Of a DNA stretch of 64,000 bases, positions 58,164-64,000 are shown piece by piece (within the stretch, counting starts at the first letter, position 1; every line of letters starts with the position of its first letter). The stretch is from the NCBI RefSeq assembly GCF_017353515.1, contig NZ_JAFMPY010000001.1, forward strand, positions 248,001-312,000, in the 5' to 3' direction. Position numbers and translations under genes: made by a program. Under the pieces are notes generated by a model. It was not told the DNA's origin and made no database searches. It was given only the letters and a program-made list of their open reading frames with translations. The stretch is from Jiella sonneratiae. GTDB lineage: Bacteria; Pseudomonadota; Alphaproteobacteria; Rhizobiales; Rhizobiaceae.

Positions 58164-59510
58164 ATGGTCATGGCCGTTCCGAACACCGAGAGCTTTTGCC
58201 GCGACTGCTTCGCCACGGCGGCGACGGCGACGCGCCGCTGCAGAGCCTGCGGCAGCCCGAGGCTGGTCGACCACCCGGAAGCATTCCGGCTGTCGATCGC
58301 CCATCTCGACTGCGACGCCTTCTATGCCAGCATCGAAAAACGCGACCGGCCGGAGCTCGCCGACAAGCCGGTGATCATCGGCGGCGGCCACCGCGGGGTG
58401 GTGTCGACGGCCTGCTACATCGCGCGCATCCGCGGCGTCCGCTCGGCGATGCCGATGTTCAAGGCGCTGAAACTCTGTCCGGATGCGATCGTGCTGCGGC
58501 CCGACATGGCGAAATATGCCGAAGTCGGGCGCGCGGTCCGTGCCCTGATGGGCGAGATCACGCCCCTCGTCGAGCCGCTTTCGATCGACGAGGCGTTTCT
58601 CGATCTGTCCGGGACCGAGGCGCTGCACGGCGAGCCGAGCAGCCTGACCCTCGCACGGCTCGCCAGCCGCATCGAATCGGAGCTCGGCATCACCGTCTCC
58701 ATCGGTCTCTCGCACAACAAGTTCCTCGCCAAGGTGGCCAGCGACCTCGAAAAGCCGCGCGGCTTCTCGATCATCGGCGATGCCGAGACGCTCACCTTCC
58801 TCACGCCGCGGCCGATCGGGCTGATATGGGGCGTCGGCAAGGCTCTCGAAGAGCGGCTGGCGCGCGACGGCCTCCACCGGATCGGCCAGCTCCAGACCAT
58901 GGATCAGGGCGAGCTGATGAAGCGCTACGGCGAGATGGGCGGGCGGCTGTGGCGCCTGTCGCGCGGCATCGACGCACGGCGCGTCAATCCGCGCGGCGAG
59001 GCGAAGAGCATCTCGGCCGAGACGACCTTCAATACCGACATCGACAGCCTCGACGCGCTGCTGCCGATCCTGCGCGACCTTTCCGAGACCGTCGCCGGCC
59101 GGCTGAAGAAGACCGACCTCGCCGCCGCGACGATCGTCCTGAAGCTGAAGACCGCCGACTTCCGGCTGCGCACGCGCAACCGCAAGCTCGCCGCCCCCAC
59201 CCGCCTCGCCGACCGGATCTTCGCCGCGGGCCGTGCGCTGCTGCAGAAAGAGGTGGACGGGACGCGCTTCCGGCTGATCGGCATCGGCTGCGCCGATTTT
59301 ACGCCGGCAAGACAAGCCGATCCCGTCGATCTGGTCGATCCGGCAGCCGAACGGCGGGCCCGCGCGGAGGCGGCGCTCGACAGCCTGCGCGGCAAGTTCG
59401 GCAGGAGCGCGATCGAGACCGGCATCACCTTCGGCAGGCTGCGCCGCTCGGCCCGCGCGGCGGCACGAGCCGGCAACTCCCCGCGACCGCCCGAGGCGGC
59501 CGGCGACTGA
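58164..59510 (+). CDS. dinB: DNA polymerase IV with N-terminal zinc-ribbon-like extension
   Basis: A 448-residue Y-family translesion polymerase. The N-terminal ~35 residues carry two Cys pairs, FCRDC and CRACGSPRL, like a small zinc ribbon, before the catalytic start [18 protein letters not shown]. Active-site acids are in AHLDCDAF and [11 protein letters not shown]. The little-finger domain follows (about 255-380). The ATG at 58164 is used; 58170 is an equal alternative. No LexA box was found upstream. The stop codon TGA (59508-59510) is the first triplet of the interspersed repeat, so the C-terminus ends at the element. Confidence 0.92.
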
Positions 59511-59687: not shown

Positions 59688-62600
59688 CTACAGGAGTTCC
59701 ACTTCGAGAACGCCGGGCGCGGCCTTCACCGCGCTCGCGACCTGCGGCGAGACGCGATAGCGCCCCGGCAGGGTGATCTCGACTTCCCGCTCGCCGCCGT
59801 CGCGGACGAGCACCAGCGAGACCTCGCTGTCTCCCTCTGCCGAAAGCTGGCTGCGGAACGCAGCCAGCGGCCGTGCGTCGCGCATGAAGACGCGCAGCGC
59901 CTTCTGGGTGCGGACCGCCTCGTCCTCCAGCGACTGGACGTGCTGGGCGCGCAGCGAGACACCCTCCGGCCGCTCCTCGGCGGAGACGGTGACGATCACC
60001 GACGCACCCGGCTCGAGCACGTCGCGATAGGCAAACAGCGCCTCGGAGAAGAGCACCACCTCGTACTGGCCGCTCGCATCCGACATCTGCACGATGCCGA
60101 TCTTGCCGCCGGTGCGGGTCTTGCGTTCCTGGCGCGAGGTCACCGTGCCGGCGAGCCGACCCGCCGTCGCCCCGCGTTTCACCGCGCTGACCACCTCGAC
60201 ATGGGACTGGACCCTGAGGCGCTTCAGGACGTCCCTGTATTCGTCGAGCGGATGGGCCGAGAGATAGAATCCCACCGCCTGAAATTCCTTCATCAGCTTC
60301 TCCGACGCCGTCCAGAGCTGCGCCGGATTGAGCGCCAGCGGTTCTGGCGCGCCCCCCGCCGCCGAGCCGAACATGTCGTGCTGGCCGGAACTCCGGCCTT
60401 CCGAGGCGCGCAGGGCATAGGCCATCAGCCGTTCGACATTGGCGTGGAGCAGCGAACGATCGTGGCCGAAGCAGTCCAGCGCACCGGCGGCGACCAGAAA
60501 TTCCAGCGTGCGCTTGTTGACGATCTTCGGATCGATGCGGGTGCAGAAATCCTCGAGCGAGGCGAAGGGCGCCTCGCCGCGCCGCTCGACGATGTGCTCG
60601 ACGGCCTGCTCGCCGACCCCCTTGATCGCCGCGAGCGCGTAGAAGATCCGATTCTCGCCGACTTCGAACGCCTTGTGGGAGGTCTGGACCGAGGGCGGAA
60701 CCACCTCGATGCCGAGCCGCCGCGCGTCCGAGCGGAAGTCGTTCAGCTTGTCGGTGTTGCCGGTGTCCAGCGTCATCGACGCCGCCAGGAACTCGACCGG
60801 ATGATTGGCCTTCAGATAGGCCGTCTGATAGGCGACGAGCGCGTAGCAGGCGGCGTGCGACTTGTTGAAGCCGTAATCGGCGAATTTCGCCAGAAGGTCG
60901 AAGATCGTGTTCGCCTGGGTCTTCGAGATGCCGTTCTTCACCGCCCCGTCGACGAAGCGCACCCGCTGCTTGTCCATCTCGGCGCGGATCTTCTTGCCCA
61001 TCGCCCGGCGCAGCAGGTCTGCCTCGCCGAGCGAATAGCCCGACAGCACCTGGGCGATCTGCATCACCTGTTCCTGATAGATGATGACGCCCTGGGTCTC
61101 CTTGAGGATCGGCTCGATCATCGGGTGGAGGAAGTCCGGCTCCTCCTCCTTGTGCTTGCGGGCGTTGTAGGTCGGGATGTTCTCCATCGGGCCGGGGCGA
61201 TAGAGCGCGACCAGCGCGATGATGTCTTCCAGACAGTCGGGCCGCATGCCGATCAGCGCCTTGCGCATGCCGACCGATTCCACCTGGAACACGCCGACCG
61301 TCTCGCCGCGGGTCAGCATGTCGTAGGTCTTGGCGTCGTCGAGCGGCAGCGCCGACAGGTCGATCGCGACGTCCTTGCGGGCGATCAGGTCGACCGCGGT
61401 CTTCAGGGTGGTGAGGGTCTTCAGCCCGAGGAAGTCGAACTTCACCAGCCCGGCCGGTTCGACCCACTTCATGTTGAACTGCGTGACCGGCATGTCGGAG
61501 CGCGGATCGCGGTACATCGGCACGAGCTTCGACAGCGGCCGGTCGCCGATGACGATGCCCGCCGCATGGGTCGAGGCGTGGCGGTAGAGGCCTTCGAGCT
61601 TCAGCGCGATTGAAATCAGCCGGTCGACGACATCCTCGGCCTTGCGCGCCTCGGCGAGCCGCGGCTCCTCCTCCAGCGCCTTGGCGAGGGTGACCGGATT
61701 GGCCGGGTTCTGCGGCACGAGCTTGCACAGCTTGTCGACCTGGCCGTAGGACATTTCGAGCACCCGGCCGACGTCGCGCAGCACGGCGCGCGCCTGCAGC
61801 GTGCCGAAGGTGATGATCTGGCCCACCTGCTCGCGACCGTACTTCTCCTGGACGTAACGGATCACCTCCTCCCGCCGGTCCTGGCAGAAGTCGATGTCGA
61901 AATCCGGCATCGACACGCGCTCCGGATTGAGGAAGCGCTCGAACAGCAGCGAGAAGCGCAGCGGATCGAGATCGGTGATGGTCAGCGAATAGGCGACGAG
62001 CGACCCGGCGCCGGAACCGCGCCCCGGCCCGACCGGAATGTCGTGGGACTTCGCCCATTTGATGAAGTCCGAAACGATCAGAAAGTAGCCGGGAAACTTC
62101 ATCCGCTCGATGATGCCGAGCTCGAATTCCAGCCGCTCGCGATACGCCTCCTCGGAGACGCCCGGCGCGCAGCCGAGCTTCGACAACCGGCTGGCCAGCC
62201 CCTCGAAGGCCTGCCGCCTGAGCTCCGCCGCCTCGGCGGCCTCGGCGGCGACGGGATCGGCGTCGGCGCCGGCAAAGCGCGGCAGGATCGGCGCGCGGGT
62301 GCGCGGGCGGTAGGAGCAGCGGCGGGCGATCTCGACGGTGTTTTCCAGCGCCTCGGGCAGATCGGCGAAGAGCGCCGCCATCTCCTCCTTGGTCTTCAGG
62401 CAGTGATCGCGGGTCAGCCGTCGGCGGTCCTCGTGGCTGACCAGCCGGTTGCCGGCGACGGCGAGCAGCGCGTCATGGGCTTCGAAGTCGTCGGGGCAGG
62501 AGAAGTAGGGCTCGTTCGTCGCGACCAGCGGCAAAAGGAGGTCGTAGGCGAGCGCAACGGTCTCGGCCTCGACCCGCGCGCTGAAGCCGGACTGGCGCTG

Positions 62601-63185
62601 CAGTTCGACGTAGAGCCGGTCGCCGAACACCGCCGCCAGCCGTTCGAGACGCCCCCTGGCGATCGCCGGCCGGTCGGCGGCGATCGCCGCGCCGACGGCA
62701 CCCAGCGGCCCGCCGGTCAGCCCGATGACCCCCGCGCTCCGCTCTTCCAGCCACTCCGCCTTGACGACCGGCCGGTGGTTCTCGGGATCGCCGAGATAGG
62801 CAAGCGAGACGATCTCGACGAGATTGGCGTAGCCGCCGGCGTCGGCGGCGATCAGCACCAGCTGGCCGAGCGGCGACAGGCCGCGGTCGGCGCGTCCGGG
62901 ACGGGTGTCGACCTCGGAATCGGCGAAGTCGACCTCGATCTGGCAACCGACGATCGGCTGGATTCCCGCCTTCGAGGCCTTCTCGGAAAATTCCAGCGCG
63001 CCGAAGAGGTTGTTGGTGTCCGCGATGCCGATCGCCGGCGCCGCGTCGGCGGCGGCGAACTTGATGATCTGATCGAGCCGAAGCGCGCCTTCGAGCAGCG
63101 AGAAGGAGCTGTGGACGCGCAGGTGCACGAAGGGAAGAGCCGCCATGCCGCCCGGCCCGGCCGGGGTGTCCGTCGATTGTGTCAT
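59688..63185 (-). CDS. dnaE: DNA polymerase III alpha subunit
   Basis: A 1165-residue replicative polymerase. The N-terminal PHP domain begins FVHLRVHSSFSLLEGALR. The palm holds the catalytic acids in PDFDIDFCQDRREEVI. IPVGPGRGSGAGSLVAY and the helix-hairpin-helix and OB regions complete the usual DnaE1 order. ATG 63185 has GAGGA seven bases before it, whereas upstream ATGs have no site. It lies between dinB (convergent) and the SOS-boxed peptide gene. dnaE next to lolD is a common arrangement in the order. Confidence 0.96.
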   Translation of the reverse strand: MTQSTDTPAGPGGMAALPFVHLRVHSSFSLLEGALRLDQIIKFAAADAAPAIGIADTNNLFGALEFSEKASKAGIQPIVGCQIEVDFADSEVDTRPGRADRGLSPLGQLVLIAADAGGYANLVEIVSLAYLGDPENHRPVVKAEWLEERSAGVIGLTGGPLGAVGAAIAADRPAIARGRLERLAAVFGDRLYVELQRQSGFSARVEAETVALAYDLLLPLVATNEPYFSCPDDFEAHDALLAVAGNRLVSHEDRRRLTRDHCLKTKEEMAALFADLPEALENTVEIARRCSYRPRTRAPILPRFAGADADPVAAEAAEAAELRRQAFEGLASRLSKLGCAPGVSEEAYRERLEFELGIIERMKFPGYFLIVSDFIKWAKSHDIPVGPGRGSGAGSLVAYSLTITDLDPLRFSLLFERFLNPERVSMPDFDIDFCQDRREEVIRYVQEKYGREQVGQIITFGTLQARAVLRDVGRVLEMSYGQVDKLCKLVPQNPANPVTLAKALEEEPRLAEARKAEDVVDRLISIALKLEGLYRHASTHAAGIVIGDRPLSKLVPMYRDPRSDMPVTQFNMKWVEPAGLVKFDFLGLKTLTTLKTAVDLIARKDVAIDLSALPLDDAKTYDMLTRGETVGVFQVESVGMRKALIGMRPDCLEDIIALVALYRPGPMENIPTYNARKHKEEEPDFLHPMIEPILKETQGVIIYQEQVMQIAQVLSGYSLGEADLLRRAMGKKIRAEMDKQRVRFVDGAVKNGISKTQANTIFDLLAKFADYGFNKSHAACYALVAYQTAYLKANHPVEFLAASMTLDTGNTDKLNDFRSDARRLGIEVVPPSVQTSHKAFEVGENRIFYALAAIKGVGEQAVEHIVERRGEAPFASLEDFCTRIDPKIVNKRTLEFLVAAGALDCFGHDRSLLHANVERLMAYALRASEGRSSGQHDMFGSAAGGAPEPLALNPAQLWTASEKLMKEFQAVGFYLSAHPLDEYRDVLKRLRVQSHVEVVSAVKRGATAGRLAGTVTSRQERKTRTGGKIGIVQMSDASGQYEVVLFSEALFAYRDVLEPGASVIVTVSAEERPEGVSLRAQHVQSLEDEAVRTQKALRVFMRDARPLAAFRSQLSAEGDSEVSLVLVRDGGEREVEITLPGRYRVSPQVASAVKAAPGVLEVELL

Positions 63186-63398
63186 CGCAAGTCCTCGCAT
63201 GCCGGCATCTGCCGCAGGAACGCACGGCCGGCCTTTCGCGAGCATCGAAGATGCCGGGGGCCGGAAGCCATGCCCTGCGCCGATTACGGGTAAGAGGCGG
63301 AACCGCCCGAGGGAAGGACCGGCCGGGCTGCGTCCCCAGGAAAGGCGGCTTCGTCCACCGGCCCGAGGCCGAGCCGGCGGGCGGACGGCGGAGCCCCG

Positions 63399-63485
63399 TC
63401 AGACGGCCTGGATGACGACGCCGAGGGCGAAGAGGAAGGAGGAAATGGCGAGAAGCGACAGGACGTCCTTGGTGACGGCGAGCAT
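63399..63485 (-). CDS. 28-residue single-span membrane peptide with SOS box (SidA-like candidate)
   Basis: A short gene coding for 28 residues: MLAVTKDVLSLLAISS then FLFALGVVIQAV, essentially one membrane helix with a charged Lys-Asp at its N-side. AAGGGAGATC lies at the right spacing before ATG 63485. Upstream are TTGACG (63555-63550) and, after 17 bases, ACAAAT (63532-63527), with a perfect alphaproteobacterial LexA box in the spacer. Caulobacter SidA is a 29-residue SOS-induced inner-membrane peptide that stops division. Size, topology and regulation agree, but sequence similarity to SidA was not tested. Confidence 0.6.
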   Translation of the reverse strand: MLAVTKDVLSLLAISSFLFALGVVIQAV

Positions 63486-63526
63486 GGCGGATCTCCCTTC
63501 GGATCGGTGTTTTTGCTAACGTCCCC

Positions 63527-63555
63527 ATTTGTTCTTTTTTTGTTCTGTCCGTCAA
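63527..63555 (-). promoter_or_regulatory. promoter with LexA (SOS) box for the 28-residue peptide
   Basis: GTTC (63531-63534), seven Ts, GTTC (63542-63545) is an exact match to the alphaproteobacterial LexA consensus GTTC-N7-GTTC. It lies between a minus-strand -35 TTGACG (63555-63550) and a weak -10 ACAAAT (63532-63527), overlapping the latter, so LexA would block RNA polymerase. The predicted leader is about 35 nt. Confidence 0.6.
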
Positions 63556-63709: not shown

Positions 63710-64000
63710 TCAGGTCATGTCGAGGGGAACGATCTTGCCGGCTTCGAGGGTGATCACGTGATCCATGCGGCGCGCGAGATCGTGATTGTGGGTGGCGATC
63801 AGCGCCGCGACGCCGGACTGCCGCACCAGGGCGGTCAGGGCGTCGAAGACGTAGCCCGAGGTCGTCGGGTCGAGATTGCCCGTCGGCTCGTCGGCGAGCA
63901 GGAGATGCGGCGAGTTGGCGACGGCGCGGGCGATGGCGACGCGCTGCTGCTCGCCGCCGGAGAGCTCGGCCGGGCGGTGCTCGGAGCGGGCGCCGATGCG
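63710..64000 (-). CDS. lolD: lipoprotein-releasing ABC transporter ATP-binding protein, 5' part outside the window
   Basis: The last 96 residues of an ABC ATPase are visible: the signature [18 protein letters not shown], Walker [14 protein letters not shown], the switch His in [14 protein letters not shown], and the end AGKIVPLDM. The LolD/MacB-like form of these motifs and the position next to dnaE fit lolD of the LolCDE system, which moves lipoproteins from the inner membrane. The N-terminal half with Walker A lies beyond the window. Confidence 0.88.

Follow-up and report, generated by a model that had tools for sequence, protein, structure and literature searches.

The window, a 64,000-nucleotide stretch of the genome of Jiella sonneratiae, ends in the 3' part of lolD and raises the question of whether the very small frame between lolD and dnaE is a real gene and, if so, what it encodes. 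In the sequence-only reading it was described as an SOS-boxed membrane peptide and a possible division inhibitor of SidA type. The gene has 28 codons, MLAVTKDVLSLLAISSFLFALGVVIQAV, begins with ATG and lies at 63399..63485 on the minus strand; from its frame, homology and conservation it is annotated here as a very probable sidA ortholog. Its downstream neighbour in the same direction is dnaE, coding for the replicative DNA polymerase III alpha subunit (59688..63245, minus strand), and its upstream neighbour in the same direction is lolD, of which the 3' end (63710..64000, minus strand) is present before the gene runs off the window. A Shine-Dalgarno-like AAGGGAG (63493..63499, minus strand) stands 7 nt 5' of the ATG, and an SD-like motif is found in 102/108 family members. 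The peptide has a single predicted membrane helix, its best 17-residue hydrophobic stretch reaching a mean of 2.52 on the Kyte-Doolittle scale. The place of the gene, its good ribosome site and its one helix were thus all as described before. When 20 members of the peptide family were searched in Pfam and NCBIfam, no model scored better than E 0.01, and annotation easily overlooks so short a gene. On the plus strand, tail to tail with dnaE, a frame at 58164..59510 resembles a Y-family polymerase (DinB) by eye.

A perfect GTTC-N7-GTTC LexA box, GTTCTTTTTTTGTTC on the plus strand and GAACAAAAAAAGAAC on the coding strand, is present at 63531..63545, that is 60 to 46 bases 5' of the ATG. It is a predicted site, recognized from its pattern and from its conservation in the family. 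Directly 5' of the box, and 70 bases 5' of the ATG, is TTGACG (63550..63555, minus strand), a putative -35 element; TTGAC occurs at -90..-45 in 85/108 family members. A possible weak -10, ACAAAT (63527..63532, minus strand), follows at 17-nt spacing and is overlapped by the box. A sigma-70 consensus scan reported no promoter, and so, of the earlier statement that the box is placed inside the -35/-10 promoter, the part on the -35 holds, while the weak -10 is plausible. In the window, the box pattern was matched once, with 1.63 matches expected, and 78/100 shuffles held at least one match. The perfect box by itself is therefore a chance-level match and proves nothing; it is the conservation in the family that raises it far above chance.

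The complete genome has 97 matches to the box and 52 to a control pattern. Fourteen of the 97 were inspected, chosen by eye mostly for AT-rich spacers, and five of these adjoin lexA, uvrA/ssb, imuA, ruvA, and a gene of YifB type, all SOS genes in other bacteria; the other nine do not adjoin known SOS genes. Because the five are next to the genes expected of an SOS regulon, LexA in this genome most likely uses the GTTC-N7-GTTC box. Two AT-rich LexA-like boxes of the same genome (L404:1502-1516 and L405:1504-1518) have as neighbours a radical SAM gene of the PA0069 family in one case and, close to a contig end, an unnamed 274-aa frame in the other; both are possible further SOS genes.

Relatives in the same family (f1) were collected by peptide similarity alone, and the box played no part in their selection. 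With the window peptide as query, 21/199 family genomes were matched at E 1; the 22 places found are all 28- or 29-aa ATG frames, and 21 of them have a perfect box, the remaining one running off its contig. Profile A1, built from 20 members, matched 170/199 genomes at the same threshold of E 1; among the weakest of these hits, some are short stretches within long frames and look like chance. The 125 family loci were reduced to 108 genomes by collapsing 17 extra loci of the same genomes, and the weak class-wide matches L046-L074 were excluded from the family count. With the start of the box allowed between -100 and -15 relative to the ATG, these first 108 genomes have a perfect box in 97 cases, a box with a single mismatch in six, and none in five, one of which carries a boxed second copy (L471). 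The remainder of the same loci holds 7 boxes in 386,201 bp, which gives 0.0016 expected per 86-bp window. Twenty further loci, mostly weaker matches, have a perfect box in 14 cases. Altogether, a perfect box just upstream of the homologous peptide was found in 110/124 genomes examined at locus level, out of 199 searched.

The frame itself is conserved as a coding sequence. Its length is exactly 28 aa in 100/108 family members, and ATG is the start in 107/108. Purifying selection is indicated by pN/pS of 0.21 over 42 independent pairs, and the mean entropies at the three codon positions are 1.21, 0.59, and 1.49. Among four sampled members of the genus, compared pairwise, 31 to 59% of synonymous sites and 16 to 24% of other sites differ. 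When 1055 small TM ORFs of the loci were scored with the family model, those scoring at least 20, a group that includes the model's own training rows, had a perfect box in 195/249 cases and a box with no or one mismatch in 244/249, versus a perfect box in 9/595 of those scoring below zero. The gene order was compared over a stretch of mostly 1.5-2 kb per side, cut shorter in 3/108: lolD and dnaE are both present in 34 genomes, lolD only in 44, dnaE only in 10, and neither in 20. The sequence-only reading had proposed looking in relatives for the same peptide with its upstream box at this junction, and had named lack of conservation of frame or box as the result that would speak against it; both proved conserved in the family.

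Some members of the family differ in the number of boxes. Two overlapping boxes 11 bp apart (GAAC-N7-GAAC-N7-GAAC, near -48 and -37) are found in 19/108 genomes, and two boxes 18-19 bp apart in 6/108; loci with overlapping or paired boxes include L035, L037, L041, L075, L077, and L101, and the window has a single box. The arrangement looks as if LexA were bound in tandem. Boxless second copies occur in L109, L472, and L473 (genus g17, 32-33 aa) and in L139 and L140 (G008 and G142, 28 aa). The genomes concerned also carry a boxed copy, and the second copies are possibly paralogs that escaped from SOS control.

For comparison with SidA, Caulobacteraceae were located among 67 genomes via CtrA (best identity 94%); genome G772 is presumably Caulobacter according to its CtrA, genus code, and gene order. 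The dnaE upstream region was inspected in 30 of the 60 genomes searched in this family, and 26 of the 30 have a one-helix frame of 29-31 aa that follows a box with no more than one mismatch. A DnaE scan of named genomes gave 80 loci, nearly all from Caulobacteraceae or their order by title. The motif scan recognized the peptide in 63 of them, with 29 aa in 43, 30 aa in 6, and 31 aa in 14, and a perfect box in 51. Named carriers include Caulobacter, Phenylobacterium, and Brevundimonas; Caulobacter segnis FS (L261) has the 30-aa form. In the genus of G667, 72/75 genomes match, two of the 72 weakly.

SidA of Caulobacter crescentus is described as a 29-aa inner-membrane inhibitor of FtsW (PMC4211646), and its gene bears the tag CCNA_02004 (PMC11034885). 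Caulobacter dnaE1 is listed in a table as CC1926 (PMC1839093), and CCNA_02005 as an inosine-uridine nucleoside hydrolase (PMC3667746). From the numbering, and from the gene order of locus L366, we infer that CC1926 adjoins CCNA_02004. L366, from a Caulobacter-genus genome, contains lolC, lolD, a nucleoside hydrolase gene (PF01156), a 29-aa peptide with a perfect box and no Pfam match, and dnaE. As this order agrees with the published Caulobacter tags, the 29-aa frame is taken to be SidA by its position, length, box, and neighbours. The SEDS protein of the same genome (L422) has A31, F145, and A246 all at the published FtsW numbers, counted from the chosen Met.

Aligned in hhalign, the rhizobial profile A1 and the Caulobacteraceae profile A2 gave a probability of 94.9% and E 4e-8; the 21 aligned columns start at Met1 and contain no gap. 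In the column-shuffle control, 0/200 reached 94% or the observed score, two exceeded 50%, and the best had 79%; the reversed profile gave 0.4%. Identity between the two families is 24% over the 21 aligned columns, and many positions differ. Their conservation profiles correlate weakly (r 0.29, p 0.07), and a conserved helical face has a permutation p of 0.037 in the rhizobial family and 0.25 in Caulobacteraceae, which is weak support. The window peptide and SidA are alike in size (28 and 29 aa), in having one membrane helix and a promoter with the same kind of LexA box, and in lying upstream of dnaE or dnaE1 and near lolD. They share D/E7, A/S10, L11, F17, and, in the window copy, a basic residue 6. 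Unlike SidA, the window peptide is one residue shorter and has no WM at positions 19-20, which is a feature of the Caulobacteraceae form; the usual rhizobial C-terminus is hydrophobic-G/H-A-hydrophobic. Synteny, length, LexA box, and profile-profile homology together point to an ortholog and not just a functional parallel, and the gene is almost certainly the Hyphomicrobiales ortholog of Caulobacter sidA. The cautious earlier wording of a possible SidA-type peptide can to this extent be strengthened.

The most probable reading of the locus, with a probability of about 0.8, is that this ortholog would be induced in the SOS response and inhibit division through FtsW. LexA on its box would block the promoter of the peptide gene. 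After DNA damage, RecA would be activated and LexA cleaved, and a short unstructured mRNA would be made. The 28-aa peptide would then insert as one helix into the inner membrane and, by analogy with SidA, bind the late division complex, FtsW foremost. With FtsW, FtsI, and FtsN held inactive, septation would be delayed until repair was complete. SidA itself, induced by DNA damage, binds FtsW and FtsN and prevents constriction while the Z-ring stays intact.

The FtsW protein of the genome is 48% identical to L422 and has kept A31 and A246, with Leu at position 145. In Caulobacter, exchange of FtsW A31 for Lys relieves the action of SidA and not that of DidA, and F145L relieves both (PMC4211646). 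Three of the four sampled genomes of the window's genus have Leu at position 145. Because this is the residue that confers resistance in Caulobacter, lower sensitivity is possible, and the action of SidA type may be weaker or altered in this genus. Position 31 is Ala in 24/24 sampled own-family genomes with the peptide, and Val or Thr in four family genomes without a peptide match (G061, G085, G071, and G045). In the FtsW tree, G120, a peptide carrier, falls into one clade with these four, which leaves one independent pair; in this tree, the rows G049 and G192 have implausible branch lengths, for which faulty trimming is the probable cause. G120 carries the peptide gene though the search scored it at E 0.1. 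With peptide absences unreliable and all cases in one clade, no conclusion on co-variation of residue 31 is drawn.

The alternative that survives best is a SidA-family inhibitor whose main partner in Hyphomicrobiales is another one, such as FtsN, FtsI or a further late protein, or which also slows polar growth. FtsN is a further contact of SidA, and DidA brings about the same state of the FtsW/I/N complex by way of FtsN (PMC4211646); the Leu at FtsW residue 145 points the same way. In addition, FtsW is the sole SEDS protein found, with no RodA, in 28/28 own-family genomes (1/1, 3/3, and 24/24; L417:1429-2595), and G559, from another family of the order, has a single SEDS protein as well. Two SEDS proteins above the cut-off are found in the Caulobacter genome and in three genomes of families f12, f123, and f7. 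The target landscape thus differs from that of Caulobacter. Against a change of partner stands A31, the suppressor site specific to SidA, which is Ala here and in all of the sampled peptide-bearing family genomes, and we hold this alternative to be unlikely.

Still less likely is a type I toxin under SOS control, whose helix would lower the proton motive force and slow growth and which would be restrained by an antisense RNA or leader. Such a toxin would be of the same size class, with a single helix and under LexA control. TisB of E. coli, a tiny SOS-induced membrane toxin with antisense control and an amphipathic, positively charged helix, illustrates that peptides of this kind evolve under LexA. 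DinQ, also of E. coli, is a second case, a tiny SOS-induced toxic peptide of the inner membrane with antisense control (PMC3567139). SidA is therefore not the only close functional parallel, as had been supposed. The likeness to both ends at size and at the predicted location and induction, as the window peptide has no structured leader and a non-amphipathic helix. The predicted leader is short, and leader and gene together are unstructured (fold z +1.53, with 191/200 shuffles folding at least as well); no Rfam match was found near the peptide gene. The core helix is strongly hydrophobic and non-amphipathic, with a mean H of 0.83, a moment of 0.07, and one K/R, versus a mean H of 0.70 and a moment of 0.20 for TisB. 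The score of TisB is negative with each of the three family models, and the gene is kept with its neighbours across families and is not sporadic. On the unstructured leader and the helix moment, the toxin was rejected as a candidate.

The small frame could also serve as a uORF, or encode a leader peptide, for tuning the translation of dnaE, with the SOS box serving dnaE. It ends 153 bp short of the longest dnaE frame, which runs in the same direction; a simple scan found no terminator between the two, and in S. meliloti ribosome profiling detected a translated sORF25 in the dnaE1 5' UTR, one of the sORFs proposed as possible uORFs (PMC10117765). The conserved amino-acid sequence and exact length argue against such a role, as do the 64/108 family copies that show no dnaE within the stretch covered, so that it is very improbable as an explanation; read-through from the SOS promoter into dnaE may occur as well. 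A chance ORF with a chance box, for which the 1.63 boxes expected per window would speak, is refuted by the conservation of peptide and box (97/108 and 110/124 boxed, 195/249 versus 9/595, pN/pS 0.21), and its probability is practically nil.

With the SidA ortholog acting on FtsW as the preferred reading, other known inhibitors can be compared. SulA, YneA, and SosA are likewise SOS-induced division inhibitors; they are larger proteins than the window peptide. A search of the complete genome for SulA (PF03846) gave no match at E 0.01, and the ImuA of this genome reaches SulA models only with scores under their cut-off. DidA of Caulobacter is, like SidA, a small one-helix inhibitor of the FtsW/I/N complex; unlike the window peptide it has 71 aa, is SOS-independent, and binds FtsN (PMC4211646). 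The titles and abstract openings of the literature searched contained no rhizobial SidA and named no SOS division inhibitor of rhizobia or their relatives; the original SidA paper of 2011 may hold a remark on it. SidA is not mentioned in a Dinoroseobacter LexA paper. Besides sORF25, which shares the site upstream of dnaE1 with the window gene, the S. meliloti data include SEP6, with fewer than 30 aa, a predicted helix, a location mainly in the membrane-containing pellet, and conservation in Hyphomicrobiales (PMC10117765). SEP6 shares size, helix, and membrane fraction with the window peptide; both are likened to it by description only, and either could be this gene.

The distribution outside the family was followed in 70 dnaE-upstream regions, 68 of them from other families. 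A perfect box is present in 18 and absent from 52; in the latter, the gene is absent, elsewhere or diverged, and a few of the regions are short. Sixteen of the 18 boxed regions have a one-helix frame of 28-47 aa 3' of the box on the dnaE strand. The families with boxed peptides upstream of dnaE are the own family, f2, f3, f7, f12, f44, and f123. With a combined profile, support was obtained for the peptides of f12, f123, f3, and one of the two f2 genomes, with scores of 9.9 to 28.2; those of f7, f44, and the other f2 genome (L188) have no score with the profile and are position matches only. Three unboxed ORFs that had been fetched for their similarity (L046, L054, and L063) score 12 to 16, a sign that chance extends into the lower end of this range. 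As the scores of other families overlap with these, the box and the position carry part of the argument. A class-wide search with the rhizobial profile gave no convincing full-length match outside the family, and the links came through synteny; one weak partial match of that search (G570, L047) carries a perfect box.

In Caulobacter SidA is known; what is new is that an apparently local inhibitor would become old and widespread. The balance is somewhat in favour of SidA being an ancestral SOS division checkpoint across much of Alphaproteobacteria, a LexA-boxed peptide of 28-47 aa upstream of dnaE that predates the split of the families. It would then supply the SOS division inhibitor that is missing in Hyphomicrobiales, with FtsW as its target and helix 1 (A31) as a possible docking site. 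If so, one small family would explain the block of division after DNA damage across much of a bacterial class, and could be tested in common laboratory strains. The more than 120 distinct sequences (87 rhizobial and 37 from Caulobacteraceae) would then also form a natural set for mapping how a one-helix peptide shuts down FtsW. As for a mobile or phage gene, tblastn with the peptide of one relative, a short query of low power, gave no match in phage and plasmid collections at E 10, and this origin was rejected. In family f12 (L163 and L184-L187), the junction peptide has 44-47 aa, with a longer polar N-terminus before the membrane helix.
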